A DNA stretch of 44,138 bases. It comes from a virus. Shown one piece after another: positions 3,501 through 26,962 of this stretch. Below the pieces are notes generated by a model, which did not search any database, was not told the DNA's origin, and saw only the letters and a list, made by a program, of their open reading frames with translations. Where the stretch lies: positions 1 through 44,138 of IMG/VR virus record IMGVR_UViG_3300044699_000039; one strand, written 5' to 3'. The stretch's first letter is position 1; each line of letters opens with the position of its first letter. Position numbers and translations under genes: made by a program.

Positions 3501-6500
3501 AAGAATTAATGCTTCATTTAGAGGATTACAAGATGTATTTAGAAATTTAGAAAAGAATAAATTATTATCTAATGTAGAAACGATACAAAAAGCGGGAGGA
3601 ATTTATCCTACCCCGCAACAAAATCCACAACAGTTTTTTGCTAATGTCGGTGGGGTTCAAAATGTATTAGCACCGCAATTCGCTCAATTAAGGAAAGAAG
3701 CAATAGAAGGAGAAAGACAACAAAAAATAACTAGAAATGAATACGCTCGTTATCAGGGCACACTAGCGTTTTTTCCTCCGGTTCAATCAGAAGTAATAGC
3801 GCAACAAAAACAAAAAAGATTACAACAAAAATTAGCAGAAAATAGAGCGAGACTAGCTCAAATAGAAGCTAGAAAATCAGGGTTGAGTTTATCTCAGTTA
3901 CATTATCAAGATCCCGGCGAATTACCTTTATTTGCTGGCAGTCCAATTAGTCCATTACCATATTCTCCATTATCCTACCCGAGAGGAACTAATTTACAAA
4001 CATTACAAACTACTGGATTACCTAATCCTTTAAGATTAATTCAAGCCCCTAATTATGGAAATTTAATTAATCCAAGTAGTTTTGGAAGAAATACTCCAGG
4101 ATTTAATACTCCTGAACAAATTGCGGAGGACATTAAAAACAGCAAGAAACAGAAAGAAATTTAGCAAAACAAAAGGCTATAAGAGAGCGCTATGAAAGAA
4201 TATATGGAATAAAAGGAAGATTAGAAAGAGGCGTTAATCAAGACTTGAAACGGCGGAAGGGTTTTTCGATAGTCCGGGAGCGCAAAATAAAGCTTTAATT
4301 TCTAGTATTGCTTTGCCGATTGTCGCTGGTGTATTATCTGAATCTTTTGGCAAAGAAACTAAAACACAAAGAGGATTGGGCCAATTAGCTACTTCGGTAG
4401 GAAATTTAGGAAGTTATGGAATTTTGGGCGCACAATTTGGTGGTTTGCCCGGATTAGCCATCGGCGGGGATTCGGTTTGTTTACAGAAGCTCCTAAAATT
4501 ATTCAATCTTTCACTGATACAATTCCTGATTTGCAAAGAGAGATAGAAAAATTAACTGAAAAAATAGGGCAAACTAACGATGGATTTTCTAGTATTATTC
4601 AAAATAATGAAAAATTAACCCAATATGCTAAAGGGAATTAAGATTAAATCCTCAACAATACGCCCAATTACAAATACAATCAGGAAATCAAAAATCACAA
4701 TTAGCAAGTTTAAATCCTGAATTTGCTCTAGAATCTATGGGGCTACGACTTCTGCACAAAGTTCTCAATTATTAGGAGAAATAAATAATAAAAAATAATA
4801 ATGAAAGATTATTGCAATTATTAGAAGTACAAAGACAAACAATAACGCCCCAGTCTCTATTACAAAGATCTTATAACGATGTAGCTAATCAATTTAAAAT
4901 TCAATAAAATATAATCCCATCCTTAATTTTGGTGGGGCGGTTAGAAATCAACAAACAGGCGGTTTAGATATTTTACAGGGATTAGATTTGGCTACACTTG
5001 GATTATTTTCTAGTGCTAGTGGCTCCAGACGTATAGAAAATAATAGAGCTTTAAATCCAGAAGAAGAAAAACAAATTAAAGATTTGGTCGGTGGGACTTT
5101 ATCTTTAACGGATAAGAGCGGTAAAACATTAGAATCTGTTATTAGACAAGAATATACAACTGAATTTAATTCAAAGAATAAAGATAGAAATTTGGGCAAA
5201 ACCCTAGCGGTTCAATTAAACAAAGCTTTCCAAGGGAATACTAATGAAGAAATAGTTAGAAATTTAGAAAAGATTTTAAATGACAAAAGATTAGAAAATT
5301 TTGATTTAACTTCTTTATTGAATTTATTTCAAGACGTACAAGATACTAATAATAAATTTTCTTTCGCTAGGAGGGAATTATTAGGTAAAACATCTGGAGA
5401 TATAACGAGACGGGTAGCACAAGCTCCAGAAATAGATTATCAAAAAATTGCCGTAGATAATTATAAATTAATTCAATCTTTTGGAGAATTGGATGACGAA
5501 TTAAGAAAATTAGGAGTCAGAGCGGAATCATTAACTCAAACTAGTATTTTTAATTTGGGACAGGGATTAGAAAGAAATATTTCTGATATACGAACTCGTG
5601 CGGCTATACAAATTTCAAGAACCGAAGATTATAACCCCTTTCGAGCTATTAATATTAAAAGAAACGCTTCTTTAGCCGAAATAGAACAAGAAAGAGTTGT
5701 GGGATTACAAGAAGCCGGAATTAGATTAGCCCCAATAAAAAAGAAGATATAGCTGAATTAATTAAAAGTTTAAATGAAGTTTATTTCAAAGAGTCGGAGG
5801 AAGAAATAGAATAGAATCTACTCTTGGAAGAACTAATTTTGAATCGTTTTTAGAAAATATTGTTCCGGGATATAATTCTCCATTCAAAAAAGAAACTAAA
5901 AATAATTTGCTTGGTTTTCCTAGTGTCAATAATGCTCAAACTTTAAATTCTTTATTAGGAACAGAAAATTTATCTCAAATTATTAATGACCCTATTAAAA
6001 TGTTTGAAATTGAACAGGCGAGATTAAATAAAATTCCTAGTTCTTTACCAAGCCGTTTTTCTCTTTTAAAGAATAATCAGAACTTACCTTTTATATCAAA
6101 TCAATTTGGATATAAGCCAAGCGTATTTAATGAACCTTTTCTATTACCAAATCAAGGGACTGTAGCAGAAACAATAGGGGACTAACTTCCGAACAGCGTG
6201 AAGAATTTTCTAAAAATATTCAAAAACAGTATGCAAAACTTAATGAAGATTTACAACATCCTACTAAAATCCTATTGGGAAAGCAGAAAAGCTGTCGAAG
6301 ATTATGTCAAAGAATTAAAAAAATATTTAGATGTCAGAATAAAGATCAAATTAAATTAAGAGAATTACAAAATAATCTTAATGAAAAAGCGGCCACACAA
6401 CGTAAAATACCGAAACGCAATTAGACTTGATAGAGAACAATTTATAAAAAATATTTCTGGTAGTTATTCTGATGTTGTTGAAGATTTAGATACGGTTAGG

Positions 6501-8183
6501 AAAATACTGAAAAAATTTATGACCAAATTAATGCAGAAGTTGAATCGGGGAAATTGACACCAAGACAAGCAAGACGCGCTGCATTATCTAGAGTATCAGA
6601 TAGTAATTTTGGAGAAGTTAGGTCTAATTATTTACGCGAGATATAAACACACCGCAATATCGTCAAAAGCTACAGGAAAAGACAGAAAATGATTTAAGAA
6701 CAAATGGGCGATTGACGGGGAAACAATTAGGGTTAGAATTAGAGTCTGGATTTGGTTATAATTCAAGAGATTTTTTTCAAGAAGTAGCTTCCAAACGCTA
6801 GAGAAGCTGGTGATATAATGCGCCAATCATTTTCTTCCGCCTTTCAATCGTTTACAGATGGCAGTAAAGTGCGTCAGAAGGCCGCTAGGTCATTCGGTAT
6901 TTCTATAGCAACTAATATACTTAACAAAGTGGCCGATATAGGTTTTAATTCATTAATTGGCGGGATATTTAATGCCGGACAGAATATATTTAGTTCTGCT
7001 AAAATTGCTACGCCTAATCGCGGGGGATATATAGGGTTTGCTAACGGCGGTATGGTAACGGGCGGTTCAGGAATTAGGGACGATATCCCTATGATGTTAA
7101 GCCAAGGTTCTTATGTATTGAGAAAAAGCGCCGTAATAAATATGGAGTTAATAGATTACAGAAATTTGCCTCCGGCGGGGCGTCAACCTTAACCTAAAGA
7201 ATGAATATAACTATAGGGGTTCTAAAGAAAACCTAGAGGGATATTTTGACGTGGACCCTAGGTTGTCCGCTATTGGCCAAACGGATGAAAACAATCCATC
7301 TAATACATTAAAATTCGCCGTGAAACAAGATTTCTATAGTTATCAAAAGACTATTGAGAATTATAGAGATGCGGTTAAAACAATTTGAAAGAGCTAAACA
7401 GCAACGCTTAATTGGGCTGCTATTAGTGCTGTTTCTACCGTTGGGGGCGCTTATTTAGGTCAAATTGCACAAGCCGGAGCTAATTCGACCAGTAACGCGG
7501 CTTTGCAAAATCGTGCATGGTCTAACAATACTCAATCTTCTAATTATACTAATACTATTAGTCAGGGGGGACAAAATTATAATACATTTTACTAACACTT
7601 ATAATGGACCATTGCGTAATTTGGGAGGTTTAATTAGGAAATACGCTTATGGTGGGTCTGTAGATACCGTTCCTAGTTTGTTGACTGGTGGCGAATTTGT
7701 AGTTAATCCTCAGGCAGTCAACAGGTTAGGCGTGCCATTCTTAGATAATCTCAACGAAGGCAGAATTAAAGCCTACCCGAATGGCCGTTGGGGGCTTGGT
7801 TGCAATGATTTGAATGTATCAACCCGATTTCTCAAGAAAGTTCAGACTCTTGGAGTCAAAATTAACGCCTCTTTTAAATCAATTAGTTAAGATTAATCAG
7901 AATATACTAGAATTGCAAGACGGGCGTAAAAACAAGACTAATACTAATAATACCCAATCTGATACCAAGAGACGACCAATAATGCCGTTTCTAGCCCCTC
8001 TGTATCAATTATAATTAATATGACGGCCAATGGAGGGTCAACACAGCAGACACAGACAAATAACGCTCAAAACTCAATGGTGAAGATTTGAAGAAGTTTG
8101 CCGAAATCATGAAAAATGTTGCTCTTAATGAAATATTGACTCAACAAAGGACCGGCGGAGCCTTAGCGAATACTAGAACTTAA
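1..8183 (+). CDS. Tail tape measure protein (lambda gpH-like), 5'-truncated, frameshifted
   Basis: One very long gene runs off the left edge and stops at TAA 8181-8183; it would encode more than 2,700 residues. The tape measure protein sets tail length and is ejected through the tail tube. The open frame switches repeatedly (near 320, 545, 715, 770, 1028, 1750, 4136, 4470, 4640, 4735, 4905, 5750-6620, 6800, 7170-7590, 7790-8080), and the reading always resumes in another frame with the same composition, so I read it as one gene with indel errors. Visible parts in order: repeat-and-module region (1-3340), coiled-coil/Gln-rich region (3500-6700), a hydrophobic glycine-rich segment (about 4300-4480), and two tape-measure C-terminal modules with GGMVTGG/DDIPMMLS (about 7040-7110) and GGSVDTVPSLLTGGEF (about 7650-7700). 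It converges with the tail-tip operon, whose last gene overlaps its stop codon. Confidence 0.85.
800..1468 (+). other. Second ART-like module (YHVTT...ISFT...GEYRI) in the tape measure protein
   Basis: Between the first and second GLIPSF repeats the protein reads LPEKLYHVTTNFGAV, then GLLKSRRDL, then GLGGGDDTTISFTGNF, and after a frame change near 1028 continues to LGEYRIHEGKQ just before the repeat at 1472. A His in a YHxT context, an aromatic/Ser strand (ISFT, and later LFFTSDY) and a late GE strand are the three landmarks of H-Y-E-type ADP-ribosyltransferases. The match is in order and spacing only; the residue in the Tyr position is not certain. If real, this would be an ejected effector domain carried inside a tail protein. 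Confidence 0.35.
1777..4164 (+). CDS. Tape measure protein, longest unbroken segment (repeat-module region to Gln-rich region)
   Basis: This 795-residue stretch is the best-preserved part of the tape measure gene and may be annotated alone, but GTG 1777 lies inside the VPNFA repeat of the larger protein, so it is not a true start. It holds five of the seven P-N-F-A-type repeats, an HTH-like module (bases 2110-2250), a module of about 256 residues of unknown kind (2320-3087), and from about 3500 a Gln/Lys/Glu-rich region likely to form helices (QQKQKRLQQKLAENRARLAQ). Its apparent end at 4164 is a frameshift near 4136; the next frame continues as QQETERNLAKQKAIRERYE without a gap. Confidence 0.75.
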   Translation: MPNFAESFKGRRYFDKRQMLEAFVTPTMKGTPDALKGEERVTFFDRNDNRPIDHQVLTPSNLEFYGGLEGYLKDGPYGSKNWKRFADKGLVPSFARGERYMGSSSVAINARGLLDELARDERRALIKLMEGATIPDIASEMNLSVSGASTLLENAKKSYATKYNLAKAGKLASGGIIPNYAIIPGVSQAIGRILTNTVSPFSYSLGDKIGAIKNAGVKGILRALIKDKSTGYVSDSLSEDLDSARMFPYRKMFGLSVSKAGSDIYIPNKDGTYSFNESNKTGAKLLRQIRGSSFSTNMSGDKIEFTDVSEGIAYNSVLGKFYKRIDEKSDRTFYEDKWDFAANSKEENPKLKGLFRELKDIYKSYRENRSLVGDDSRKRLYSRGESLSAALSTNLSATDTDFSKLARKLIGSITSPITIKGETGLYGPLDNPWQIFNGLIPNFNALSDAISRENRAGINLSQIRVGHAPQLANGLNPLGLGVYNTRDEPMGLKQGINRAIRENINPKVYGTTKNIPNFALDPTTFDVGLAGAGIKTEVGKQYIELARQVESGLITARDAIKKFSEIAIVIPKDVERINASFRGLQDVFRNLEKNKLLSNVETIQKAGGIYPTPQQNPQQFFANVGGVQNVLAPQFAQLRKEAIEGERQQKITRNEYARYQGTLAFFPPVQSEVIAQQKQKRLQQKLAENRARLAQIEARKSGLSLSQLHYQDPGELPLFAGSPISPLPYSPLSYPRGTNLQTLQTTGLPNPLRLIQAPNYGNLINPSSFGRNTPGFNTPEQIAEDIKNSKKQKEI
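2110..2250 (+). other. Helix-turn-helix-like module inside the tape measure protein
   Basis: Between the repeats at 2041 and 2299 the sequence reads LLDELARDERRALIKLMEG, then ATIPDIASEMNLSVSGASTL and LLENAKKSY. The layout (a helix with D/ERRAL, then G-x-T-x-x-x-I-A-x-x-x-x-x-S-x-x-x-x) is that of LuxR/sigma-region-4 helix-turn-helix domains: the I-A pair, the turn MNLS and the recognition-helix positions all fit. A DNA-binding fold in a tail protein would be unusual; it could bind the genome end inside the tail tube, or act in the host after ejection. Confidence 0.45.
6818..8183 (+). other. C-terminal part of the tape measure protein with two GG-D-P-LSxG modules
   Basis: From 6818 the tape measure protein reads through an Ala/Gly-rich segment (NAGQNIFSSAKIATPNRGGY) into a glycine-rich module with IGFANGGMVTGG and DDIPMMLSQGSYVL, and after two or three frame changes into a second module with KYAYGGSVDTVPSLLTGGEF and VVNPQAVNRLG. 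Such paired modules are usual at the C-terminal end of phage tape measure proteins. A short coiled segment with LLNQLVKINQNILELQ follows, then Asn/Thr-rich sequence, the end TGGALANTRT and TAA at 8181. Confidence 0.75.
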
Positions 8184-12861: not shown

Positions 12862-13520
12862 GTTATTCTAGCCGTATCATCAGCATTAAAATATTCGACA
12901 TCATAAGAAGCTGAAATAACCGAAGAACCTATCATCCCCATACCATATTGAACAGGAACGGGCCCGCCTTCGTTAATTGTATTGACAGGACCACCAAAGA
13001 GATAAGAAGTCTTTTGACGTTGAGTAAATTCTTGAAGTTCTGGGCCTTTAGATAAGAGATTAATAACGCCAGCGGCAATTAGACCTATACCGGCAATAAT
13101 TAAAGGAACACCTAATCCTCCTCCGGCTACAGCGACCACTATTCCGACAATTACTAAAACAACGCCTAATATAATAGCTCCAATACTAGCTCCGTTCCCG
13201 CCCGCACCTTCGAGGACAGGCACTATATCTATTGTTTTTAATCCATGAACTTGAGCGCATAACTCGCTGTTCGCTATACTTTCTGGATCATTTAATGTCG
13301 GAGTTTTTTCACATAAGAAATCCCGACCATTAATTAAAACACGATATTTAATACCCTTGTCATCATTTTCTTTTAAAAATTTGTATAGTTTTCTTTTACT
13401 TAAAACTTCAATTGCGTTCAATGCTTGGCCGACACTATTAATAGCAAGATTCCATGTTTTATATTTGACATGCTCGCCCAAACAGCCTAATAAATTAACT
13501 TTTACTAAATTTTGTTTCAC
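12858..13520 (-). CDS. I: Tail assembly protein (lambda gpI-like)
   Basis: A 220-residue protein with the gpI layout: a beta-grasp-like N-terminal part (VKVNLLGCLGEHV, LINGRDFLC), a central strongly hydrophobic Gly/Ala/Val/Ile segment of about 50 residues that could form two membrane-spanning or fusion helices, and a C-terminal tail with YLFGGPVNTINEGGPVPVQYG, typical of this family and likely the part that engages gpJ. It starts with GTG at 13520; the preceding gene stops with the TGA inside GTGA, and its own stop overlaps the ATG of gpJ, so both junctions are translationally coupled. Expected role: assembly of the tail tip, possibly absent from the finished particle. Confidence 0.85.
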   Translation of the reverse strand: MKQNLVKVNLLGCLGEHVKYKTWNLAINSVGQALNAIEVLSKRKLYKFLKENDDKGIKYRVLINGRDFLCEKTPTLNDPESIANSELCAQVHGLKTIDIVPVLEGAGGNGASIGAIILGVVLVIVGIVVAVAGGGLGVPLIIAGIGLIAAGVINLLSKGPELQEFTQRQKTSYLFGGPVNTINEGGPVPVQYGMGMIGSSVISASYDVEYFNADDTARIT

Positions 13521-14299
13521 AATAATAATTTATGTCTAAATATATGAGTTGTTAATCTATCGAAAGCCGCTCGATAGGATTCTATACAAGAAAACTCTCT
13601 CATGTTATGCAATACTTGTTTATTTTTAAGATATATAAGTAAAGAAAACGATTCTTTTAAAAATCTTTTTTTATTTTCTAGCAAAAACACTTCTTGTTCT
13701 CTTGTAGAAGGTAATTTAATTTGAATTATGTCGTGTACACTTGGTTTATCTACTTGAATAAAATTATTTGCAAAAAAATAATTCGTTATTATCTCAGAAC
13801 ATTCGTTATAAGAAATTACAGAAGTATCTGCGTCCATATATGTTTCTGGAGATAATTGAAAAGGAGTAGAAAATTCGGATAATATAATATTTAATTCCCT
13901 ACGATAATAATCTCTAATTAAAGGCAAGCAAAACATTTGTCCATTAATAATAAAAGGTCGCCCCTGATAAGGTATTTCCATACCATTTGGTTTATATTCT
14001 TTAAAATTATCCGAATCTACTATATACAAAATACATATTTTATTTAATTTTTCACTAAAAGCTATATCAGCGATACTAAATTCGGGATAATCTTTATGAC
14101 TATGATAAACACCAATAATATGTTTTAAGCCATATTTATTTATATCTCCGTGGCCTATAATAAAACTTTTCTCTGGTGTGCTAGATATATTTTTACAGGA
14201 AATAGTATTTCCATTATCTAATATAAATCCACAACACTCGTTGGGATAAACCTTTTGAGCTTCTTTTTTTATAAAATCTTTTATTTCTGGGGTTAACAT
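13517..14299 (-). CDS. gpK-like protein 2: JAMM domain with degenerate NlpC/P60-like domain
   Basis: A 260-residue second copy of gpK. The JAMM/Mov34 metalloprotease motif is complete: E21 in NECCGF, H66 and H68 in YHSH, S75 and D78 in SIAD. The C-terminal half aligns with the NlpC/P60 domain of the neighbour and keeps the Cys (C124 in MFCLPLIRDYY), but the aligned catalytic His (H200 in the neighbour) is Ser219 here (ESFSLLIYL), so peptidoglycan-peptidase activity is doubtful. ATG at 14299 lies within the end of gpK 1 with AAGGAG upstream; the stop TGA overlaps the GTG of gpI. Likely product of a local duplication followed by division of labour. Confidence 0.8.
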   Translation of the reverse strand: MLTPEIKDFIKKEAQKVYPNECCGFILDNGNTISCKNISSTPEKSFIIGHGDINKYGLKHIIGVYHSHKDYPEFSIADIAFSEKLNKICILYIVDSDNFKEYKPNGMEIPYQGRPFIINGQMFCLPLIRDYYRRELNIILSEFSTPFQLSPETYMDADTSVISYNECSEIITNYFFANNFIQVDKPSVHDIIQIKLPSTREQEVFLLENKKRFLKESFSLLIYLKNKQVLHNMREFSCIESYRAAFDRLTTHIFRHKLLL

Positions 14300-15021
14300 A
14301 ACTCCTTATGGCGAATTCTAATATAAGTATTTTCTTTATATAAATTACTATATTGCTCTACTGTAGAATATGAATTTAACTTTTGGTGAAGCACTTGATT
14401 ATTTTCAAGATAAATCATTAGGTGTGCGGGAGCGCTTGTACTATTTTTAGATATAATTATATCTCCATGTTTTAAATTTTCTTGCACATGCAATTCTTTG
14501 AATCCGAAATTTGGTATATTATCAATAATTTCACGGGGGTTAACTCTTATCCAATGTTCATCTCTAAATTTATTAGGTAATTTAATGTCAAATTCATTAG
14601 AATAAAAATCTTGGACTAAACTTAAACAATCGCTTTCATTATATGAAAAACGGCGACCAATGTATTGAGAATACACATCTTTATCGTTAAAGATTTTGAA
14701 TTCGTCGTTTGGGAGATAGTATAATACTAATGGTAATTTATGATTAATGCTATTTAATTTATCTAATAGAGTAAATTCGTTGGGTTGTTCTTTGAGACAA
14801 TGGGAGTGATAAAATCCAACAATTTTACTATTTTCGCTTGCATTAATATAATCATACGGAGAAACAGAAAAATTATTTATCTTATCATCGGCCATGTTTT
14901 TACATGGGTACGGATGGACATAATTTCCACTTTCAACTAATAGACCGCAACATTCATTTGGATTATCAGTAAGAGCATGGTTTTTAATTAAATTAAATGT
15001 TTTTTTAGATAAGTTAAGCAT
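14293..15021 (-). CDS. K: Tail assembly protein gpK-like 1: JAMM plus NlpC/P60 endopeptidase
   Basis: A 242-residue protein with the two-domain layout of lambda gpK. The N-terminal JAMM domain has E23 (NECCGL), H72 and H74 (YHSH) and D87, but Thr84 stands where Ser is usual. The C-terminal NlpC/P60 domain has Cys132 (ESDCLSLVQDFY) and His200 (APAHLMIYL), so the cell-wall peptidase appears functional. Proteins of this type process tail components and can open the peptidoglycan during DNA entry. ATG at 15021 has GAGGAAAT just upstream and overlaps the end of gpL by 8 bases; its end overlaps the start of gpK 2. Confidence 0.85.
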   Translation of the reverse strand: MLNLSKKTFNLIKNHALTDNPNECCGLLVESGNYVHPYPCKNMADDKINNFSVSPYDYINASENSKIVGFYHSHCLKEQPNEFTLLDKLNSINHKLPLVLYYLPNDEFKIFNDKDVYSQYIGRRFSYNESDCLSLVQDFYSNEFDIKLPNKFRDEHWIRVNPREIIDNIPNFGFKELHVQENLKHGDIIISKNSTSAPAHLMIYLENNQVLHQKLNSYSTVEQYSNLYKENTYIRIRHKELC

Positions 15022-16052: not shown

Positions 16053-16574
16053 TTATGCTACTGTTTCTTGAAATTGGCAATCAATTGTATTATTATTTTG
16101 GAATACTATATTATGTCTCCATTGAGCACAAACAAATAATTTATTAATATTAAATGGTGGAGGCGGCATGAAAATAAAAGATTGATGACCGGCGCGAGTG
16201 TTTAAAAAATGTAAAATTGCTCTGGTTTCAGCATCAGTTCTTTTATCGAACGTTAAATTAAAAGGTAACAGGATGTTGTTTATCCCATCGGGCGAACGTT
16301 GGACAAATCCATCACCAAATCTTACTTCTTTAATAGAAGGTTTAACTTCAATATTTGAATTATAACTGGGAATCCATATAAACTTTGGTTTTACTTTGCC
16401 ATTATAAGTAGAAATTCCTCCAGAAAACGCCGAATTAAAGGTCAAACCACTATTATGTTTTGATAGGCTATAATAGTATTTTTGACTATATCTTGGATAT
16501 TCATAAATATCCCATAGATTATATTGAGTATTAGCCACCCAATAAGAAACGTCATATATACTTAATCCTGCCAT
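16053..16574 (-). CDS. M: Minor tail protein (lambda gpM-like)
   Basis: A 173-residue protein with the gpM signature in its C-terminal half: VRFGDGFVQRSPDGIN, LPFNLTFDKRTDAE, ILHFLNTRAGHQSFIFM and the closing CAQWRHNI...CQFQE, where the tail protein folds onto the tube end. The N-terminal 55 residues (YWVANTQYNLWDIYEYPRYS) are an addition in front of the usual domain and resemble a small surface module. It is the first gene of the minus-strand tail-tip operon. ATG at 16574 is preceded by AAAGGA at good spacing, and the divergent promoter region lies about 30 bases upstream. Confidence 0.85.
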   Translation of the reverse strand: MAGLSIYDVSYWVANTQYNLWDIYEYPRYSQKYYYSLSKHNSGLTFNSAFSGGISTYNGKVKPKFIWIPSYNSNIEVKPSIKEVRFGDGFVQRSPDGINNILLPFNLTFDKRTDAETRAILHFLNTRAGHQSFIFMPPPPFNINKLFVCAQWRHNIVFQNNNTIDCQFQETVA

Positions 16575-16662: not shown

Positions 16663-18585
16663 ATGGCACAAGGATTAAGCAGAAATCGGAGGGAGTTTAG
16701 CAGGTTCTTTTTTCAAGGAGCTGAATTATCTGGTTTACAGTCCGCCAATTTGCAATTTGCCGAAAATTTAAATCCAATTTCTCATTTGGGATTAAGCAAT
16801 ACTCAGGTATTTCCTGTCGGCCCGAGAAAAGGTTCGGTTTCATTAAGTTTTATTCCTTTACACGCCGACCCTTTCATAAATTATGTAACAGGAAATTCTG
16901 GTATAAACGGCTATTTACTTGGAAATCAATTAGATACGGGCAATTGTTATGGATTTCAGTCGGGTTATATTACTTCTTATAATCATCAATGCAGTGTTGG
17001 CAATTTGCCCGAAATTAATCTTCAAATTGACGTATTAAATAATATAGGTAGATTAAGCGGAAATAATCTTGATATTATTAGAGATTTTAATTTAATTACA
17101 GGTAATACTGGCATTGGCGTTCATAAAATAGCAACATTTTCAAGTATAGATTTAAGTTTAGATCAATTTGAAACCAATAGAGTCCAAAGTTATTCTTTAG
17201 ATATTCAAGTGAATAGGAATCCTGTATATCCTCTAGGAGAGTCTGTTCCAAGTGCAGTTAATATAATGTATCCCATTGAATTAATATTTAATGCTAACAT
17301 AGATGTTGATGATTATGTCGCCGGAGATTTACAAACTTATCCTTGCAAATCTCGCGTTAATAACCTTACTTTATCGTTAAAGGATCATCAGACCTATGAG
17401 GAATATATTAGGTATTCATTTGATAATTTGATTTTGGTGGGTCAAAATTATGTTACTAATATAGATGGAAATGTTAGTCTAAATTTACAATATAAAACAT
17501 ACTTAAATGCGCCATCCGGCGTAACTTTACCAGCATTAGAAAGTTGTATTAGTGGGATTAATGATACCGATTGTGAAGATTGCGTTACGGTTACTGACCG
17601 TCCTTTAACTTGTCCAAGCGGTAATTGCATTTATAATAGTGGAACTACTTTTAGTTGTACGGGATTAATATTTGGCGGAGTTTCTTATCCTACAAATGAC
17701 CGGGTTGTTACTTATTATCATCATATTATTGCAGATGGGATAGATTATGGAACTTTGGGTTTTGGATATCATGATGCCCAAATTTCTAATTATAATTTAA
17801 TAAATTGTAGCGGTGTAGATACGTGTTACCAAATAATTCCGGCTATTTTTGAAAGTATTAATTGGAATTTTGATTATATAGAAGTTGACCCGCCACTTGG
17901 TACTGTATTTTATCCGGGTATTACAAGATTAGATGTTTTACCAAGTAATGCTGATTGTGCTAATAATTGTCATACTTTTCCGTTTACAGTAACGATGCCA
18001 GAATGCAGTTTAGATTTATGTGTTGAATTAATTGAGAATTTATATCGTAATTGTCCTACAACAACCACGACTACTACAACTTCTACAACGACGACAACCA
18101 CGACTACAACAACGACGACCACCACTACGACCACCACAACGACGACTACCACCACAACGACGACTACGACGACAACCACGACGACAACCACGACGACAAC
18201 AACTACGACAACAACTACGACAACCCCAACGACGTTACCTCCATGCGATCTGGGTTTATGTAATAATCTGGATTCATACCCTTATCATATTAATGTCCCC
18301 GGGAACGATCTATGCGCTTGTTGTGATGGAGACGAAGATCCTTGTAATCCGGGAAGCGATTGTCCTACAATTATTGCTGAATGGAGTTGTTATGATATGT
18401 GTAGTACAATTCAAAGCTTGGGTCTAGGCGCGTGTGTTACAGTCTCTTCAGAAGCTTTTTATGGATGTGGAGGAACACAAATGACTCAATGTATAGGCAA
18501 ATCTTTTACTATAACCGACTTAGGTTGTTTGTATGGTGTAGTAGCTGGCGCGACACAAGCTACACAAATATGCAGAACGGCATAA
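16663..18585 (+). CDS. Virion protein: tail-tube-like domain, Cys-rich domain, 55-Thr tract
   Basis: A 640-residue protein. Residues 1-300 are beta-rich (NLQFAENLNPISHLG, SVSLSFIP, FQSGYITSYNH, YSLDIQVNRNPVYPLG) and share these landmarks with the proteins at 22204 and 23022; the pattern suggests a tail-tube or tube-decoration fold. Residues 300-465 are Cys-rich and may form disulphides. Residues 466-521 are 55 Thr and one Ser without a break, encoded by mixed codons (19 ACG, 16 ACA, 11 ACC, 9 ACT). A second Cys-rich domain (residues 525-640) follows. The tract is mucin-like and a good O-glycosylation target; two glycosyltransferase genes follow after 6 bases. ATG lies 25 bases right of the AGTGTAA box, with no strong ribosome site. 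Confidence 0.8.
   Translation: MAQGLSRNRREFSRFFFQGAELSGLQSANLQFAENLNPISHLGLSNTQVFPVGPRKGSVSLSFIPLHADPFINYVTGNSGINGYLLGNQLDTGNCYGFQSGYITSYNHQCSVGNLPEINLQIDVLNNIGRLSGNNLDIIRDFNLITGNTGIGVHKIATFSSIDLSLDQFETNRVQSYSLDIQVNRNPVYPLGESVPSAVNIMYPIELIFNANIDVDDYVAGDLQTYPCKSRVNNLTLSLKDHQTYEEYIRYSFDNLILVGQNYVTNIDGNVSLNLQYKTYLNAPSGVTLPALESCISGINDTDCEDCVTVTDRPLTCPSGNCIYNSGTTFSCTGLIFGGVSYPTNDRVVTYYHHIIADGIDYGTLGFGYHDAQISNYNLINCSGVDTCYQIIPAIFESINWNFDYIEVDPPLGTVFYPGITRLDVLPSNADCANNCHTFPFTVTMPECSLDLCVELIENLYRNCPTTTTTTTTSTTTTTTTTTTTTTTTTTTTTTTTTTTTTTTTTTTTTTTTTTTTTTTTPTTLPPCDLGLCNNLDSYPYHINVPGNDLCACCDGDEDPCNPGSDCPTIIAEWSCYDMCSTIQSLGLGACVTVSSEAFYGCGGTQMTQCIGKSFTITDLGCLYGVVAGATQATQICRTA
18058..18225 (+). repeat. Poly-threonine coding tract, codon-scrambled
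   Basis: 56 consecutive codons encode 55 Thr and one Ser (TCT, eighth after the first Thr of the CPT triplet). All four ACN codons are used in an irregular order, so the DNA is a degenerate ACN series rather than a pure triplet repeat. Short near-repeats such as ACGACAACCACG recur inside it. ACG is the most used codon although the genome is AT-rich. Confidence 0.9.
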
Positions 18586-18591
18586 ATTTAA

Positions 18592-19527
18592 ATGTTATCT
18601 ATAATTATTACATCTTTAAATGAAAATAATTTTATTCTAAATAAAACAATTCAATCTATTATAGATACTTCTCCCAAAAATATAGAAATTATAGTAATTG
18701 ATGATTGCTCTGATAACCATGTCGGACTTGAGAGTAAAAAGGTTATATTAGAAAGAAATCAATTTAGAATGGGCGTTGCCCAATCCAGACATTTTGGAGC
18801 TTCTATAGCAACAAATAAGTGGTTATTATTTACAGATTCTCATATGAAATTTGCGCCGAAATGGTATGATAATTTCATTGAATATCAAAAAACTTCAATT
18901 CCAAAAACTATTTATAATGGGTGTTGTTTAGGTTTGTGGGAGGGAGATAATATTGATTGGGATAATATAAATTTAGATAAATTACCTCATTATTATGGAG
19001 CTAAATTAGAATTATATAATAAACAAGATAATAAAATATTAGAAGGAAAATGGTTAAATTTAAAAGAAAATAAAGATAAAGACAACTATGAAATATCTTG
19101 TTTAATGGGCGCGATTTATTTTATACAGAAAAAATTCTTTTTTGAGATTAGGGGATTACAAGATCTAAAAGGATGGGGTTCAGATGAACCATTATTGTCT
19201 CTTAAGACACTTCTTTCCGGCGGAGAAATCAGACAATTAAAAAATGTGAGAGCGGCTCATTTATTTAGGAAGACCGCCCCATATAGTACTCCAAATAAAC
19301 ACATGATTTACAATAAAATTAGAATGGCGCAAACATTATTGCCAGAAGATTTAGGAAGATTGTTAATTTCTAAACTACCCCAGACAGTAGAGTTTTTTGA
19401 AGCGTTCCAATTAATAAATCAAGAAAATAAAATAATAGAAGAATATAAAAAATATTATAAATCAATATTTATTAAAGATATTGAATATATAAATCAAAAA
19501 TTTAATATAGGAATAACAAATGAATAA
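18592..19527 (+). CDS. Glycosyltransferase, family 2/27-like (polypeptide GalNAc-transferase-like)
   Basis: A 311-residue GT-A fold enzyme. The N-terminus has IIITSLNENN and IEIIVIDDCSD of the nucleotide-sugar site; GVAQSRHFGASIATNKW precedes LLFTDSHMKF, where D82-S83-H84 is the DxH metal motif of GT27 polypeptide N-acetylgalactosaminyltransferases rather than the usual DxD of family 2. WGSDEPLLSLKTLLSGG (195-211) aligns with the GGEN...CGG part of that family, and AAHLFRK (H223) with its conserved GHxFRK, which supplies the third metal ligand. It lacks the C-terminal ricin-like lectin domain. It follows the poly-Thr protein by 6 bases and overlaps the next glycosyltransferase by 8. Inferred role: adding a sugar to Thr of a virion protein; a host or other acceptor is possible. 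Confidence 0.75.
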   Translation: MLSIIITSLNENNFILNKTIQSIIDTSPKNIEIIVIDDCSDNHVGLESKKVILERNQFRMGVAQSRHFGASIATNKWLLFTDSHMKFAPKWYDNFIEYQKTSIPKTIYNGCCLGLWEGDNIDWDNINLDKLPHYYGAKLELYNKQDNKILEGKWLNLKENKDKDNYEISCLMGAIYFIQKKFFFEIRGLQDLKGWGSDEPLLSLKTLLSGGEIRQLKNVRAAHLFRKTAPYSTPNKHMIYNKIRMAQTLLPEDLGRLLISKLPQTVEFFEAFQLINQENKIIEEYKKYYKSIFIKDIEYINQKFNIGITNE

Positions 19528-20212
19528 TCCTCTAGTTACTATAATAATTTTAACATTTGCTAGAATAAAAAATCTAGAAGAAGCTATATTTTCCGCATTA
19601 AATCAAAACTATGATAATTATAATATTTTTGTTTTAAATCAATGCGAACAACAAAAACTATATATAAATCATAATAAAGTAAAGATTATCAATGTAGAAA
19701 AGACATTTGATACTATGAGTAAGGCATGGAATGAATTAATAAAAAACGCGAATGGAGAAATGATTTCCATGATGGCTGATGATGATCTAATAATGCCTTG
19801 GCATATTAAAGAACACGTAGAGAATATATTACAAAATAATTTAGAAGCATCAATTTTAGAAAAATGTATTTTTTGGGAGCGCAGAATAAATAAAACTTCT
19901 ATAGCTTTTAACGCTGCGAATATAATGTGGAAAAAATTATCATCTATTAAATTTGATGAAAATTTAAAAATTGGAGAAGACCAATTATTTTTAAGTTTAT
20001 TAAAACAACATAAATATAAAATATTAAATAATAATCCAAGTTTCGTATATTGTTGGGATAATGGAACGTACCATGTCTCTGGCAATCCAAATGATATAGG
20101 AGGATTTTATAGAGATGTTTTATATAGATTAGATAATAAAATAGAACCTAGTGGAAATATTGAAATTGTCCCCAAATTAAAAGAAGACGCCAGAATTTTA
20201 TTAAAAGTATAA
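19520..20212 (+). CDS. Glycosyltransferase family 2 (GT-A)
   Basis: A 230-residue glycosyltransferase with VTIIILTFARIKNLEEAIFS at the N-terminus, a nucleotide-binding segment (NVEKTFDTMSKAWNELI) and the DxD metal motif in MMADDDLIMP (D87-D89). GEDQ at 152-155 fits the catalytic-base region. No membrane segment is visible, so it is likely soluble. ATG lies inside the end of the previous glycosyltransferase, so the two are co-translated. It may extend the sugar started by its neighbour, or modify the Thr-rich protein that follows at 20222; the acceptor is inferred from neighbourhood only. Confidence 0.75.
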   Translation: MNNPLVTIIILTFARIKNLEEAIFSALNQNYDNYNIFVLNQCEQQKLYINHNKVKIINVEKTFDTMSKAWNELIKNANGEMISMMADDDLIMPWHIKEHVENILQNNLEASILEKCIFWERRINKTSIAFNAANIMWKKLSSIKFDENLKIGEDQLFLSLLKQHKYKILNNNPSFVYCWDNGTYHVSGNPNDIGGFYRDVLYRLDNKIEPSGNIEIVPKLKEDARILLKV

Positions 20213-20221
20213 ATAATTTAT

Positions 20222-22174
20222 ATGTTACAACAATATGTGGCCACCGGCGTATGCGTAAATGATTGTCAAAATGGTTTGCAAAACCCAATTACAGGCGTTT
20301 ATGTATATACCGGCTTCTTAGACCAATGCGAAACTGAAGGCAAAGCATATTGGTTAGCTTGTGAAAACGCCAGTTATTTAAGATCTTTGTCGCCGTGTTT
20401 GTCGGAACCAACTACCACAACCACAACGACATCATCTACTACAACTCCAATGCCCGATACTGATTTATTAGCGTCCGGCGATAGCTTTTATGATTGGACA
20501 GGAAATTTTAACGGCGTTTCTAATTCCTATTATGATATAGTTTCTTGGGGGCAAACAGAGGGATATTTATCAGGCAATACTTATGGTTCAAACCGATATT
20601 TTTCTTATCTATCTGCTAATGATGTGGGCGGTTATGGAGTAGTTTTAGCAGTTATAAAAGGAAGCGGAGTCACAGGATTTGGTAATAATACTTATAATCA
20701 ATTAGATATACCGGCGGGTCTTACTAACGTAAAACAAGTATCGGTCGGATACGACCATGTATTAGCGTTAAGAGAAAATGGCACTATTACTGGTTGGGGG
20801 CGTGATAATTGGGGAGCATTAAATTTTAATTCTAGATTGAATGGTATTAATGTAAGAAAAGTTTGTGCGGGCGTGGGAGGTTCGGTCTTTTTAATAGATA
20901 GTGGAATTATAACTGGCACAAGTATAGTCGGCGGCGGACAATCTATTGTTTATCCTAATATAACCGGATTTATCAATATTGACCATTATATGTCTCATAT
21001 TTTAGCTTTAAATGCTAATGGGATATTAACTGGAATCGGTGCAAACGTATTTGGGGAATCAAACACTAGAGATTTAAATGGAGTTTCTAAACTTTCGGCT
21101 GGATTTTCGACTAGTATGGCGGTTTATAACGATGGATATGTCACTGGTTATGGAACTCCACAAGCATTAGATAATACACCGAATATTTTAAATAGTGGCA
21201 TTGATGTTCAATTAAGAGGCCATATAGGTACAATTTTAAAAAGAAATCAAGATATAGAACAGTGGATTGATCCTTGGATTTCAGAATTGCCAGATATTGA
21301 TGAACCGGATTATTTAGATAATAATATTGTCGCTATTAGTCAAGGATTGCATTTTACAGCCGCAATTTTTAAAAGATTAACTGATGTTGTTTTACCTTCT
21401 GCAACTGGATATAATTGTTTATGGAAAGTTACTTATGTGGGAGGTATGGAAAGCTATGGAGGTATTTCATTAAATACTTTATATCCGCCGTCTGGATTAG
21501 TAGTACAATCTTGCGATGGTTATAGTTTTTATTTACCGTTAATTACAGGCGCCGGACAAACATATACACAAACCCAAGTTACTAATTGTAATGTTTACGC
21601 TGGTACTCATCAAATTGATTTTGAATCTATTTGTTCGGGATATAAATTATTAAACATCAATTATACAATAACTGGATACGCGCCAAAAACTGGTTTTGCG
21701 GCAATAGGAATAACTACGGGAGATTATTGGAATCCAATGTTAACCGGCGATTTGAGAAATAAAACTTTACTTTACGCTGATAGGAGCATTTCTCCAGTTT
21801 CGGGCGGATATTTAAAGTTATTTAGTGGCCGAAGTGGAAGTTTTACTCATACCGATAACATGTATTCCAGTTTTATATCTGGTAGTGGCTCTAATCCAAT
21901 TAATGTTTCGTTTGACCATTTTGAAACGGGCAATTATATTGGATATTTTTATGCACACGGGCCTTTATCTGGTAATAAAAGCACTATATTGGTTGGCAAA
22001 AATGGAGCGGTTATTTTAAATGATAGCACTACAACTGGAACTAATTATAATTCAACTACTTTCACGGAAGGCATTCAATATTTAACAGTTCCATTTACTA
22101 TCACAAGCTCTAGTGATTATATTTACTTATATGTGAATTATTTTCTAAATGGAATACAGTTTATTAAGTTATAA
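20222..22174 (+). CDS. Virion adhesin: Cys-rich head, Thr-rich linker, RCC1-like propeller
   Basis: A 650-residue protein. Residues 1-60 are Cys-rich (TGVCVNDCQNG, WLACENAS). A short Thr/Ser linker follows at about residues 64-75 (seven Thr, SS, three Thr), a smaller version of the tract in the gene at 16663. From about 100 to 400 the sequence repeats the RCC1 propeller pattern: SVGYDHVLALRENGTITGWG, YMSHILALNANGILTGIG and AGFSTSMAVYNDGYVTGYG. The C-terminal 240 residues are beta-rich without a family I recognise. No signal peptide is visible. Likely a surface-exposed virion decoration or receptor-binding protein; its linker would be a second substrate for the upstream glycosyltransferases. 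Confidence 0.7.
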   Translation: MLQQYVATGVCVNDCQNGLQNPITGVYVYTGFLDQCETEGKAYWLACENASYLRSLSPCLSEPTTTTTTTSSTTTPMPDTDLLASGDSFYDWTGNFNGVSNSYYDIVSWGQTEGYLSGNTYGSNRYFSYLSANDVGGYGVVLAVIKGSGVTGFGNNTYNQLDIPAGLTNVKQVSVGYDHVLALRENGTITGWGRDNWGALNFNSRLNGINVRKVCAGVGGSVFLIDSGIITGTSIVGGGQSIVYPNITGFINIDHYMSHILALNANGILTGIGANVFGESNTRDLNGVSKLSAGFSTSMAVYNDGYVTGYGTPQALDNTPNILNSGIDVQLRGHIGTILKRNQDIEQWIDPWISELPDIDEPDYLDNNIVAISQGLHFTAAIFKRLTDVVLPSATGYNCLWKVTYVGGMESYGGISLNTLYPPSGLVVQSCDGYSFYLPLITGAGQTYTQTQVTNCNVYAGTHQIDFESICSGYKLLNINYTITGYAPKTGFAAIGITTGDYWNPMLTGDLRNKTLLYADRSISPVSGGYLKLFSGRSGSFTHTDNMYSSFISGSGSNPINVSFDHFETGNYIGYFYAHGPLSGNKSTILVGKNGAVILNDSTTTGTNYNSTTFTEGIQYLTVPFTITSSSDYIYLYVNYFLNGIQFIKL

Positions 22175-22203: not shown

Positions 22204-23022
22204 GTGATTTACAATTTTGATAATATAGATGTGGCGATTAATCATAGTGGTATTATTTCCACTAATGCTTCGATTAATACCACGAATTCTATAGAACCAG
22301 CTTATGTTTTGGGATATTCAAAACCAATAAATCAATTACCATTTGGCCCAATAAAAACTACTTTAAATTCTAGTTACATACCAGTAATTGACCAAGAACC
22401 AAATTATGCGGAAGTTAATAGAATTAAATCTTTGATTAATGATTCTGGGTTTTCTGGAATTAATATAGAATTTGCCGGATTACATCATGATTGTTGGTAT
22501 TTAGATGGATATAGTTTAAAAGTACAGCCTAATAATTTAGTAGAGGCCGGAATTTCATATTCGACATTTTGGGAATTATGTGGAACTTTAAGAGAAAAAA
22601 GCAATAGAATTAATTATTTAGATGAAGGGTCGTTAATTCACTCATGGGCGGCACAATTATCAGGGATTGGGGATATTTATGATTTTAGTTATGATTTTAA
22701 AGTTAATTGGCAGCCAGTTTATATTATTGGTCGCCGTTCGCCAATTGAAGTAAAATTATTAAGTGCCGCCGAAACAATTTCATTTAATATTGATTCTTAT
22801 AGAAGAAATTTGTTTACGGGCGAAAATGTCGTTCCTAATATTTTCAACGAGAATAATGGAAATTTATATTTCCAAAATTTATCTATTATTTGTAATGATG
22901 GGTGTACGGGTTCTAATTATTTAACTTTAAATGTTAGTGGATTTAAGATAAAAAACATTAGCCCGGCGGTACAAGTAGGAGAAGTTCTAAGAACAAGTTA
23001 TGTAGCTAATAGATATTACTAA
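22204..23022 (+). CDS. Tail-tube-like virion protein, paralogue without extensions
   Basis: A 272-residue protein starting with GTG at 22204, with AAAGG about 8 bases before it and an AGTGTAAT box in the short gap before that. It shares the landmark order of the N-terminal domains at 16663 and 23022: ASINTTNSIEPAYVLG, GPIKTTLNSSYIP, WYLDGYSLKVQPNNLVE and FSYDFKVNWQPVYIIG. It has no extra C-terminal modules, so it defines the size of the common domain. The stop TAA overlaps the next ATG (TAATG). A tail-tube or tube-end role is inferred from the beta-rich pattern and the setting. Confidence 0.6.
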   Translation: MIYNFDNIDVAINHSGIISTNASINTTNSIEPAYVLGYSKPINQLPFGPIKTTLNSSYIPVIDQEPNYAEVNRIKSLINDSGFSGINIEFAGLHHDCWYLDGYSLKVQPNNLVEAGISYSTFWELCGTLREKSNRINYLDEGSLIHSWAAQLSGIGDIYDFSYDFKVNWQPVYIIGRRSPIEVKLLSAAETISFNIDSYRRNLFTGENVVPNIFNENNGNLYFQNLSIICNDGCTGSNYLTLNVSGFKIKNISPAVQVGEVLRTSYVANRYY

Positions 23023-26000
23023 TGTCATTTTTCACATATAAAAATACAAAATTACTGTTAAATGGTATTCCATACTATGCCAATAACGCTTCTTTATCCG
23101 AGATTGGGGCGATAGAACCATCTTATATCATTGATAATAAAAATAGTAACAATTATGTAGCTGAAAATGGTATCGGAGGTTCGTTACGTTTTTCATATCT
23201 TTTGACCGGCCAAGATAGTTTGGTTGATAATATTAGTTCGGAAGATTCAATAATTAGCGGTAATTTTGGTGGTTTATATTTCCAAAGTGGTTATTTAAGG
23301 TCTTATGGATTTACATTAGAACCTAACAATCCGGTGACGGTTAACGCCGAAATTGTATTCTTTGACTCTATAAGTGGAAATTTCTCTCCTAATTATGAAA
23401 TTGCGCCAGAATTATTATGTCTAAATGTCGCAAATGCAACGGTTTATGATGCTCCGGGTAACTCGGTGGGGACAATAAATAACGTAACAAATTTAAATTA
23501 CAGTTACAATATTGATATCCACCCCCAATATAATATCGGCCAAACTATACCAGAAAGAGTTGTTTTCGGCCAAAAAGAGGTTAATGTTGATATTACTTCT
23601 GATAAAACTAATGCATTTTTACCAGTATCCGGCCAAACGATATCATTAAGAGCTAAATTAACTCATCCAGTAGATTCTACTATATCACAAAATTTTGACT
23701 GTAAGGGTATCCTATTCCAAAAAGAATTTAATGTCGGCGCAAATAATATATTAGTTAATAAAATTTCAATCCGACAAAATAATTTGGCCGATTTTAATTT
23801 ACCCACGACTCAAAATGTCAATACTCCGAAAGTTTATTATTTATCTCCTAATACTGGATATGATGGAACTTCAGTTAATATTTATGGGAAAAATTTAAAT
23901 GATGTTGATTATGTTTCTTTCGGCGGAAATGTTTTTGATTATAATTTCCAAGTAATAAATGATACTCAATTAGTGGCGGCGGTTCCACCAGAAGCGATAG
24001 GTGGTGAGATTACTTTATATTCTAAGGGAGGTAGTACAATATCTAGGGATAAATTTTATGTTGGCGGAAAAGAAATTGTAATTGATGATCTAATTGCTGT
24101 ATCAGGATTAGTTAATTCTAGTATTTTAATTTCAGGTGACAATTTTTATGAAATATCAAGAGTTCTTTTCAATAACAATCAAACCGGAATATTTAATGTA
24201 ATTAATAAAAATCTTATATCGGCAATTATACCAAACAATGCTGCTTGGGGATTTGTTGATGTTATTTCTGATATATTTAATTTAAGTGGTAGGTCGGTTG
24301 AAAAATTTGTTCCGTTTCCTAATTTAGTCGGGTTTTCTCCCATGAGTGGGTTCACAGGGGATTATATAACAATTTCTGGGACAGCATTTTCTGGAATGTC
24401 AGGAGTATTTTTTAATAATTTAAGTGGTATAGATTTTACAGTTATTAATAATACGGGAATTTCTGTTAGAGTACCATCTGGAAATACAAGAGGGATTAAT
24501 AAGATTATCAGGACAATCTGGTATTACAACTTTATCCGAACAAGAATTTTTTCCTTATGCTATTGTCACAGGAGTACAGTTAGGGAGTGGACGCACAGGT
24601 GTTTTAATTGAAGTTTCTGGTAAAAATTTTATTCCAGAAATTTTATATAATTTTGGCGCTGATAAATATGCCGTTGGTTTCGCAGGAAATGTCACTGGAT
24701 ATTTTAGAAGATTAAGCAATATATCATTAACTGGAGCAGTCCCAAGTGGAGCAAAAGCGGTATTATTAATGTATATTCTCAAGACGGAGAGGCTTTCCCA
24801 TCAAATATTACTTTTATAGTAAGGGATAATCCACCTACTTTAAATTATTTTTCTCCTATTTCTGGAAAAAGACAAGATTATGTTTCGGTTATTGGAGAAA
24901 ATTTTACTAATTTATATAATGTAACTATTACTGGTGCGGTTAACGGAATTTTAACTGGGTCTAATTTAGGAACTAACTTTAATGTGGCTTCAACCGAAGA
25001 TTATTTAAACTTTCAAATTCCAAGTAATTTAACCGGCGGAGGGTATAGTATTAGAGTAAGCGGATTAGAAGGAGCTATTACAGGTAGTAATTTATATGTT
25101 TTAGAAAATCCTTATGTTAGTGGTTTTTATCCTTTATCTGGAGGTGTAGGACAAACTTTAACGTTAACCGGCCTTAATATATATCCGAGTTTAACACAAA
25201 TTTTTATAGACAGTACTGGAATCTCTGCAAATATAAATACTGGTTCTTGGGACTATAATAATAATACGATAAGTTTTACTATCCCAAATATAAGTAGCGG
25301 GCTGCATAATATTATAGTTTATAACAGCGTCTCTTCAGGTTCGGGGTCGTTTCTATTTAAATTTATTCCATCACCACAACCAACCGGATTTGTTCCTTCT
25401 AGTGGTGCATGGGGAGATTTCATATCTTTAAGTGGTTTTTATTTTGATGTAGTCACTTCATTATCAGTATCGAATATAAATATTACTAACTATTCTATAG
25501 TGGGGGCTACCGGAATTACTTTCCAAATTCCTACAGGAACTTCTACTGATTATATTATAATTTCAAATTCGGGCGGATACAATTTTACTCAAAATCAATT
25601 AATTATTGTACCTCCAATCCCAATTTTCAGTGGCTTTATAGCGCAAGAAACATATTTCGGAAGCGGGGTCATTATATCAGGGAGATATTTAAGTACCATC
25701 AGCGAAATTCAATTTACTGGTGGAACTGGTTATATTTCTATATCAAATTTTTCAGGAATTAATGATACTGGAATTAATTTTATATTACCCGGTGGAATAA
25801 GTGGAGGATATTTTAGATTAGCTGGTCCAAGGGGATATTCTTATTCTCCATATACTTTAAATTTAATTAATATTCCGATTATTGGATTAAAAAATATACA
25901 AACCGGAGTTTCAAAGATAGTGTTTTCATTTCTGGTAGTGGATTAAGTGGCTCAAGGCCGTATATTAAATCATTAATAGATAGTCTAGTTATTTGTGATA

Positions 26001-26962
26001 ATATCTCTAGGATAGGAGATACTGGATTATATTTCAATATACCAAGTGGAATAATTAGTAATCCAATTATAGTCAAAGGTAGAAATGACGTTCTTGTTAC
26101 TGATACTGGAAATTTAATTATATTACCTACTATATCTGGATTTAGTGGTTCTTTATCATATGCGAGCGGAGGATATATTAATATTACTGGTATTAATTAT
26201 AATACAGCTAATATTATAACTAAATTAGGTATAAGCGGAAATAATAGTTTTTATTATAATATAGCTAATTCAAATGAATTTTCTGGGATATATAAAACCG
26301 GCCATTCTTTAATTAGTATTAGATTAAATCAAAATTTTGCTGGCTCGGGGAAAATATTCCTTATTTCGGAGAATGATACAACTTTAGATTTTAATAGTTT
26401 TACGGGAAGTGTTAGTTATAATAAAATTAATAGCATAGCTTTAAATACAGGAATTACCGTTTCTCAGCCCACCCCAACCATAACTTATTTTGCCCCAAGT
26501 GGCGCAAGCCCTAGCGGAAGTTTGTTGGTGAGTGGAACTAACCTTTTTTCTACTTTAAATGTTATATTTAATGTGGGAGCTAACAATGGGCTTGGAACAA
26601 TTATATCTACGGGAAATTCCCAATTAAGAGTAATACCACCGTTTATGGCGACCGGAACTGGATTTTTTTATGTGGCGACTCCATTCGGAACAACATCAAG
26701 TGGATTCTTTAGAGTATTAAGTCCGTTAATTATATCTGGATATACGGCAACTTCGGTTTTTACAGGAGAATCTATTAGAATATCTGGTTCTTCTTTCTTA
26801 TCCGTGACTGGTGTAAATATAGGAGGAATTAACGCTAATTTTAGTAAAATTAACGAATTAGGCACGACTATTATTACAGGAGTTGTCCCTGATAATTCCG
26901 GGTGTTGCGGTTCTATAGTTTTAGTATGTTTAGTAAATGAAAGTGAAAGTTATTGTTTATAA
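23022..26962 (+). CDS. Tube-like domain fused to about a dozen IPT/TIG repeats, frameshifted
   Basis: One gene of about 1,313 residues if breaks near 24490, 24760 and 25910 are bridged. The first 260 residues are the tube-like domain (ASLSEIGAIEPSYIID, FQSGYLRSYGFTLEPNNP, YSYNIDIHPQYNIGQ). The rest is a chain of immunoglobulin-like IPT/TIG repeats with the pattern P-x-x-G-x-x-G-x-x-(I/V)-x-I-x-G-x-x-(F/L): LSPNTGYDGTSVNIYGKNL, FSPMSGFTGDYITISGTAF, FSPISGKRQDYVSVIGENF, FYPLSGGVGQTLTLTGLNI, FVPSSGAWGDFISLSGFYF and FAPSGASPSGSLLVSGTNL. Such chains act as rigid stalks in phage fibres and decorations. It ends with NSGCCGSIVLVCLVNESESYCL. Confidence 0.75.

Follow-up and report, generated by a model that had tools for sequence, protein, structure and literature searches.

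Mucin-type and related O-glycosylation of threonine (Thr) tracts is best known from eukaryotes. A change of the DxD motif to DxH has been reported for glycosyltransferase families GT27 and GT60 only, both of which O-glycosylate serine (Ser) or Thr residues of polypeptides, and in GT27 a C-terminal histidine (His) binds the metal (PMC7185993). The mucin-initiating enzyme of Trypanosoma cruzi adds alpha-linked N-acetylglucosamine (GlcNAc) to Thr and was assayed on KPPTTTTTTTTKPP, a Thr8 peptide (PMC3769586). In mycobacteriophage virions, the available passages of two reports describe phage-encoded glycosyltransferases that decorate the C-termini of capsid and tail-tube proteins (PMC12619734, PMC10877033, citing Freeman et al. 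2023). The present analysis concerns the complete IMG/VR virus record IMGVR_UViG_3300044699_000039 (44,138 bases; hereafter the window), the + strand of which encodes a poly-Thr tail protein of 640 amino acids (aa) (16663..18585), followed by a 311-aa DxH-type GT-A glycosyltransferase related to GT27 and GT60 (18592..19527). These two genes are predicted, with good probability, to constitute a virion O-glycosylation cassette acting on the poly-Thr tail decoration.

A DxH-type transferase encoded beside a poly-Thr tail protein

The open reading frame (ORF) coordinates confirm the spacing given in the original prediction, with exactly 6 bases between the stop codon of the poly-Thr ORF and the ATG of the enzyme, and the three motifs named there were recovered at the same residues on the + strand. 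These include the DxH metal site D82-S83-H84 (18835..18843), the WGSDEP segment (aa 195-200; 19174..19191), which aligns as the counterpart of the WGGEN / xED region, and AAHLFRK (19252..19272), in which H223 is the counterpart of the metal-binding C-terminal His of GT27. An alignment of 29 phage enzymes shows no variation at D82, H84 and H223, and >90 % conservation at E199 and G210. The enzyme carries the general PF00535 domain (1.4e-15), with a further match to PF02709 below threshold. When compared against the PDB using phmmer, all sixteen matches under 1e-7 were polypeptide N-acetylgalactosamine (GalNAc)-transferases (best 1.5e-15), and most of these run along residues 3-250 of the enzyme; the PDB entry 8uhv is the T. 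gondii GalNAc-T3. A profile of nine phage relatives matched GalNAc-transferases in the PDB at 2.7e-31 to 1.5e-19, with chondroitin synthase as the next family (1.1e-12). Furthermore, the fifty best PDB matches in a Foldseek search with the AlphaFold2 model (predicted local distance difference test, pLDDT, 92.9; predicted template modelling score, pTM, 0.92) were all GalNAc-transferases (best E 6.5e-21; TM 0.70-0.78), and among viral models it matched transferases of uncultured phages, several of them annotated 'Glycosyltransferase, GlcNAc'. Among solved enzymes, the window enzyme is nearest to the GT27 polypeptide GalNAc-transferases in sequence, profile and fold. As single-sequence queries, neither the enzyme nor the tail protein retrieved relatives from the viral, genome or named-phage collections; those of the enzyme were reached only after two GalNAc-transferase catalytic domains had joined the query, and in INPHARED neither the window enzyme nor the locus L091 enzyme described below has a significant relative.

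The description of the enzyme as GT27-like in the original prediction therefore holds for its nearest solved relatives, and extends to a GT-A catalytic domain homologous across its whole length, the DxH metal motif and the C-terminal metal His (H223 in HLFRK). It does not hold for membership of the family. The enzyme is GT27-related, yet not GT27 proper, because WGSDEP keeps the tryptophan and glycine of the GT27 WGGEN motif with glutamate (Glu) at the place of the asparagine (Asn), the ricin-type lectin domain is absent (the protein ends after the catalytic domain, with no lectin match) and the enzyme does not appear nested with GT27 in the tree. There, all DxH enzymes separate from the DxD ones (98/93), and human GT27 and bacterial DxH enzymes group together, apart from the phage clade (93/92, below threshold), with the order of the DxH clades not resolved. 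It is consequently doubtful that the enzyme is a true GT27 member producing mucin-type O-GalNAc from uridine diphosphate (UDP)-GalNAc: its best sequence, profile and fold matches are all GT27 and favour such membership, but the substituted Asn, the missing lectin domain and the placement of human GT27 with the bacterial enzymes, at sub-threshold support, argue otherwise, as does the inspection of window ORFs, in which no gene for an epimerase could be recognised. In bacteria, UDP-GlcNAc is the universal donor. Considering its presence in all bacteria, and that no epimerase gene was recognised, GlcNAc would be at least as likely a donor sugar as GalNAc. A capsule or O-antigen GT2 identity, the alternative named in the original prediction, was rejected; no best match to such a family was seen, and the NCBIfam polysaccharide GT2 models matched only the N-terminal half, scoring 18-29 bits where the cut-offs lie at 182-500. 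Bacterial genomes also encode DxH enzymes, with the motifs WGxED and HxFR (L513, L514, L518 and L519; L numbers denote individual loci). In the tree these group with animal GT27, and they have no Thr-rich neighbours; they are candidate bacterial kin of the mucin-type transferases.

The poly-Thr protein comprises a conserved tail core, a cysteine (Cys)-containing middle, the poly-Thr tract and a Cys-rich C-terminus. The tract (18058..18225, + strand), which is the proposed acceptor, was originally described as 55 Thr in a row. Its translation reads P-T8-S-T47-P-T-T, so that the number stands: the T/S run (aa 466-521) is 56 residues long and includes 55 Thr, but a single Ser interrupts it and the longest unbroken run is 47. 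The codons of this 47-Thr run are ACG (18), ACA (13), ACC (10) and ACT (6). The use of all four Thr codons indicates that the tract is held at the protein level, and is not a fresh or simple triplet expansion. A structure model points to a tail-tube-like fold for the N-terminal core (aa 1-293; 16663..17541, + strand), and homologues and their alignment show it to be conserved. Many phages whose J protein is related encode homologues of residues 1-283 at the same position, beside the phrog_14 tail gene; these homologues often stop at ~293 aa (L267, L270, L275 and L278), and those in L288, L289 and L308 bear other T/S tracts. The core model, which is of moderate quality (pLDDT 72), matched the T5/DT57C tail tip, the SH-Ab15497 major tail protein and the P74-26 tail tube (E 5e-10 to 1e-6). 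These matches agree with the earlier assignment to the tail, and the protein is predicted to be of tail-tube or tail-tip type (major tube protein or tail-tip ring). The tract thus forms a variable C-terminal extension that decorates a conserved tail-tube-type protein. When the Cys-rich C-terminal part (aa 525-640; 18235..18582, + strand) was searched for homologues, only the window itself matched.

Recurrence of the gene pair and alternative explanations

Using a criterion of at least 20 consecutive Thr codons, which underlies all counts of poly-Thr loci, at least 120 viral loci could be distinguished, with 94 taken as coding (a sufficiently long ORF, or one cut by a contig end) and 26 that look like simple repeats. 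Flanks were completed to 9 kb and searched with a general GT-A profile, the training of which, partly on DxH enzymes, may favour the detection of such enzymes but not their position. The search yielded forty-five transferase ORFs. Twenty-four of these, which lie near the 94 coding loci in 23 records, are of the DxH type, 23 being assigned by alignment and that of L111 from its DCH motif, and the C-terminal His is present in nearly all. All twenty-four are encoded on the strand of the tract and 23/24 downstream of it, although near-duplicate records (L073/L135 and L119/L128) bring the independent count nearer to 21 than to 23. Around J homologues, 80 control tail loci (1.1 Mb) contained no DxH enzyme and one transferase in all, while far regions, 800 kb taken from the same records, contained two DxH enzymes, both beside other T-rich ORFs. 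Generic phage GT2 loci included no DxH enzyme (0/47), and a T/S tract in none of 27 records. The conditional binomial p values were 3e-7 against the tail loci and 4e-4 against the far regions, and the Fisher p value for DxH versus other states against the generic glycosyltransferases was 1.5e-9. The co-occurrence for which the original prediction had proposed a neighbourhood survey recurs in unrelated phages far above background (23/94 loci). Many metagenome contigs (L047, L048, L053, L068, L071 and L145) terminate within poly-Thr tracts, so that these tracts are probable break points of assemblies, with poly-Thr genes being under-reported.

Several loci show the pair directly. For example, a poly-Thr48 protein in L113 is directly followed by the closest relative of the window enzyme (40 %; DAH and HKFRN motifs), and poly-Thr36 in L091 by a DSH/HRFGRP enzyme. 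The contig of record G009 splits inside the tract, but its ends share sequence, and when they are joined the enzyme ATG comes shortly after the stop of the poly-Thr ORF. A 115-residue T/S tract precedes the DAH enzyme of L016, and the short protein immediately upstream of the enzyme in L005, L008 and L013 has Thr-rich C-terminal stretches. Furthermore, the tract-linked enzymes of L066, L115, L158 and L160 match PF11397, the GT60 family (4e-10 to 4e-43). The occurrence of two families known for Thr O-glycosylation beside the same kind of gene provides the strongest indirect argument for function. Elsewhere, L196 (G057; 5193-7372, - strand) holds a tandem DxH pair from different tree clades downstream of a 60-Thr tract, and collagen-like GTSGTSGTT repeats (L263; G002:1-688, + strand), a possible acceptor, occur in the record that also holds the L003 enzyme, far from that enzyme.

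The reverse association was evaluated in 80 loci drawn with the profile of the HRFGRP clade (A6), counting genes as Thr-rich where at least 8 T occur in 20 aa. Such genes lie directly upstream of the A6 enzyme in 11/77 cases, downstream in none and elsewhere in 4/606 (adjacent versus other genes, p = 6e-9), and the effect is absent for DxD glycosyltransferases (p = 0.81) and for bacterial hits. The upstream genes are bimodal, with eleven very Thr-rich and the remainder mostly another conserved gene, and the A6 enzymes thus appear to serve elsewhere too. That the family always occurs beside Thr-rich genes was rejected (10/80 at the strict threshold), and the association is therefore claimed as enrichment and position only.

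A number of observations weigh against the proposed cassette. Within 9 kb, 71/94 coding tracts have no DxH enzyme, although some of these flanks are cut by contig ends, and ~85 % of the sampled A6-type enzymes have other upstream genes. Close enzyme relatives in L386 (39 %), L002 and L003 stand without a Thr-rich neighbour in the DNA examined, and no glycosyltransferase was found in the DNA examined around the tail-protein relatives with T/S tracts (L288, L289 and L308). To these may be added the Glu in WGSDEP and the error-rich ends of the record, the cassette region itself reading cleanly. The original prediction had treated related phages with an enzyme but no Thr-rich virion protein as evidence against it: this was observed in part, in L386, L002 and L003, within the DNA examined. 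The unpaired enzymes and tracts weaken the case for mutual need, but not for joint action where the two are paired.

The L002 and L003 enzymes occur among small genes that by eye resemble glycan-gene clusters, with further transferases and methyltransferases. Together with the weak N-terminal matches to capsule- or O-antigen-type GT2 models and the location of related bacterial DxH enzymes away from Thr-rich genes, this lends itself to a reading in which the enzyme acts on a surface polysaccharide of the host or the phage, in serotype conversion or in superinfection exclusion, or within a glycan cluster, and the poly-Thr gene is a chance neighbour. Such a role is improbable, as no family of lipid-linked glycosyltransferases matched over its cut-off, recurrence beside poly-Thr genes extends over several separate enzyme clades with strand and order conserved, and two known protein O-glycosyltransferase families are involved. 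Alternatively, the poly-Thr may be a mere flexible extended linker, any glycosylation falling on other Ser/Thr sites or being incidental. Poly-Thr is common in phage tail proteins (the at least 120 loci above), mostly with no DxH enzyme nearby, and relatives with T/S tracts exist with no enzyme in reach; but a linker would not account for the enriched occurrence of DxH enzymes next to poly-Thr genes, or for their order, and a 47-Thr homopolymer with mixed codons would be an unusual choice, making this explanation an unlikely one too.

Neighbouring genes and genome setting

Upstream of the cassette, the minus strand encodes lambda-type tail proteins (J, tail assembly, K-like and minor tail), and the virus is therefore a long-tailed phage. 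A divergently transcribed minor tail protein gene (phrog_14 match; 16053..16574, - strand) marks this tail module. Two K-like genes stand in tandem (13517-15021, - strand), one with Prok-JAB and NlpC/P60 and the other with the JAB part only, as if one gene had been duplicated and its copies had diverged. Where the module ends, an ORF with a Laminin-G/concanavalin-like lectin domain (PF13385, 2.5e-11; 31345-32028, + strand) encodes a possible glycan binder.

Two downstream features were missed by the original prediction. A profile match identified a second GT2-type glycosyltransferase of 230 aa with a DDD motif (19520..20212, + strand), the ORF of which overlaps that of the 311-aa enzyme by 8 bases and which has a homologue (1.6e-22) near the DxH enzyme of L002; it may be a candidate for glycan extension. 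It is followed by a 650-aa RCC1-repeat protein (20222..22174, + strand) that contains a second Thr tract, PTTTTTTTSSTTTP (20408-20449), and thus possibly a second acceptor. A third glycosyltransferase-like ORF (phrog_2170, 8e-14; 35732-36829, + strand) lies 16 kb off the cassette and could share its glycan pathway. An outer-membrane beta-barrel protein with an apparent signal peptide (PF13505, 1.6e-10; 37669-38163, + strand) may have a role in masking or excluding a receptor, and its presence is a hint that the host is Gram-negative, perhaps one of the Bacteroidota. The defence-system model scan gave no match.

The record ends (1-8 kb and 40.5-44.1 kb) are frameshifted, including the ribonucleotide reductase gene, and a run of ORFs with Ig/TIG-like repeats (23022-26962, + strand) looks like a single protein split by frameshifts. 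Both point to uncorrected indel errors. Recoding, with TAG or TGA read as sense, was rejected, as it brought no improvement, and the broken end ORFs look like sequencing errors.

Predicted mechanism and comparison with known systems

From the observed sequence, linkage, motifs, fold prediction and recurrence, we infer an activity, a donor, an acceptor and a coat function. The first gene would supply a tail-tube- or tail-tip-type protein bearing the poly-Thr tract on its C-terminal extension. The second would encode a DxH-type (GT27/GT60) polypeptide O-glycosyltransferase with a GT-A fold and a metal requirement. With Mn2+ bound by D82, H84 and H223, this enzyme is predicted to move a single N-acetylhexosamine (GlcNAc or GalNAc) from the UDP-sugar onto the Thr hydroxyls of the tract. 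Transfer would take place in the cytoplasm of the infected host, before or during tail assembly, and the GT2 enzyme encoded next to it may lengthen the glycan. Thr-rich chains become stiffer when they carry mucin-like glycans, and the tail would bear a brush that is stiff, hydrophilic and mucin-like.

That the gene pair recurs in many unrelated phages suggests mucin-like sugar coats of the phages' own making. The chances are slightly better than even that such phage mucins are widespread, with poly-Thr tail extensions and a dedicated adjacent O-glycosyltransferase drawn from several DxH lineages (GT27-like, GT60 and HRFGRP) in unrelated phages. Self-contained acceptor-plus-enzyme pairs of this kind would explain the common, unexplained poly-Thr tracts of environmental phages, and would point to a glycocalyx on phage tails, with possible roles in shielding the tail, in keeping it extended or in tuning adsorption. 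They would also bear on the origin of the DxH polypeptide transferases and supply small transferases that lack a lectin domain and with which Thr tracts might be glycosylated in Escherichia coli.

Glycosylation of phage virions is already known; the pairing of a poly-Thr acceptor with a GT27/GT60-type enzyme in phages was found in no report within the reach of the literature search, which lay short of subscription papers and preprints. With the GT27 enzymes (GalNAc-T2, GalNAc-T10 and T. gondii GalNAc-T3), the window enzyme shares the GT-A fold, the DxH motif, the His of the C-terminal HxFRK, alignment over the full catalytic domain and, as predicted, a Thr/Ser-rich acceptor, but it differs in the absence of a lectin domain, the Glu for Asn in WGGEN, a presumably cytoplasmic location and an apparent position outside GT27 in the tree. 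It differs from the GT60 enzymes, the alpha-GlcNAc-transferases of Trypanosoma cruzi mucins and Dictyostelium Skp1, in having no match to PF11397 at E values up to 1, but resembles them in the DxH motif, the predicted Thr-rich acceptor and the absence of a lectin domain, and in four other phages enzymes of the GT60 type occupy the corresponding position next to poly-Thr genes. The available passages on the mycobacteriophage systems mention neither a poly-Thr tract nor a GT27/GT60-type enzyme (PMC12619734, PMC10877033). What the window has in common with these systems is the combination of a glycosyltransferase gene and a virion protein gene, here separated by 6 bp, with a tail-tube-like core in the virion protein.

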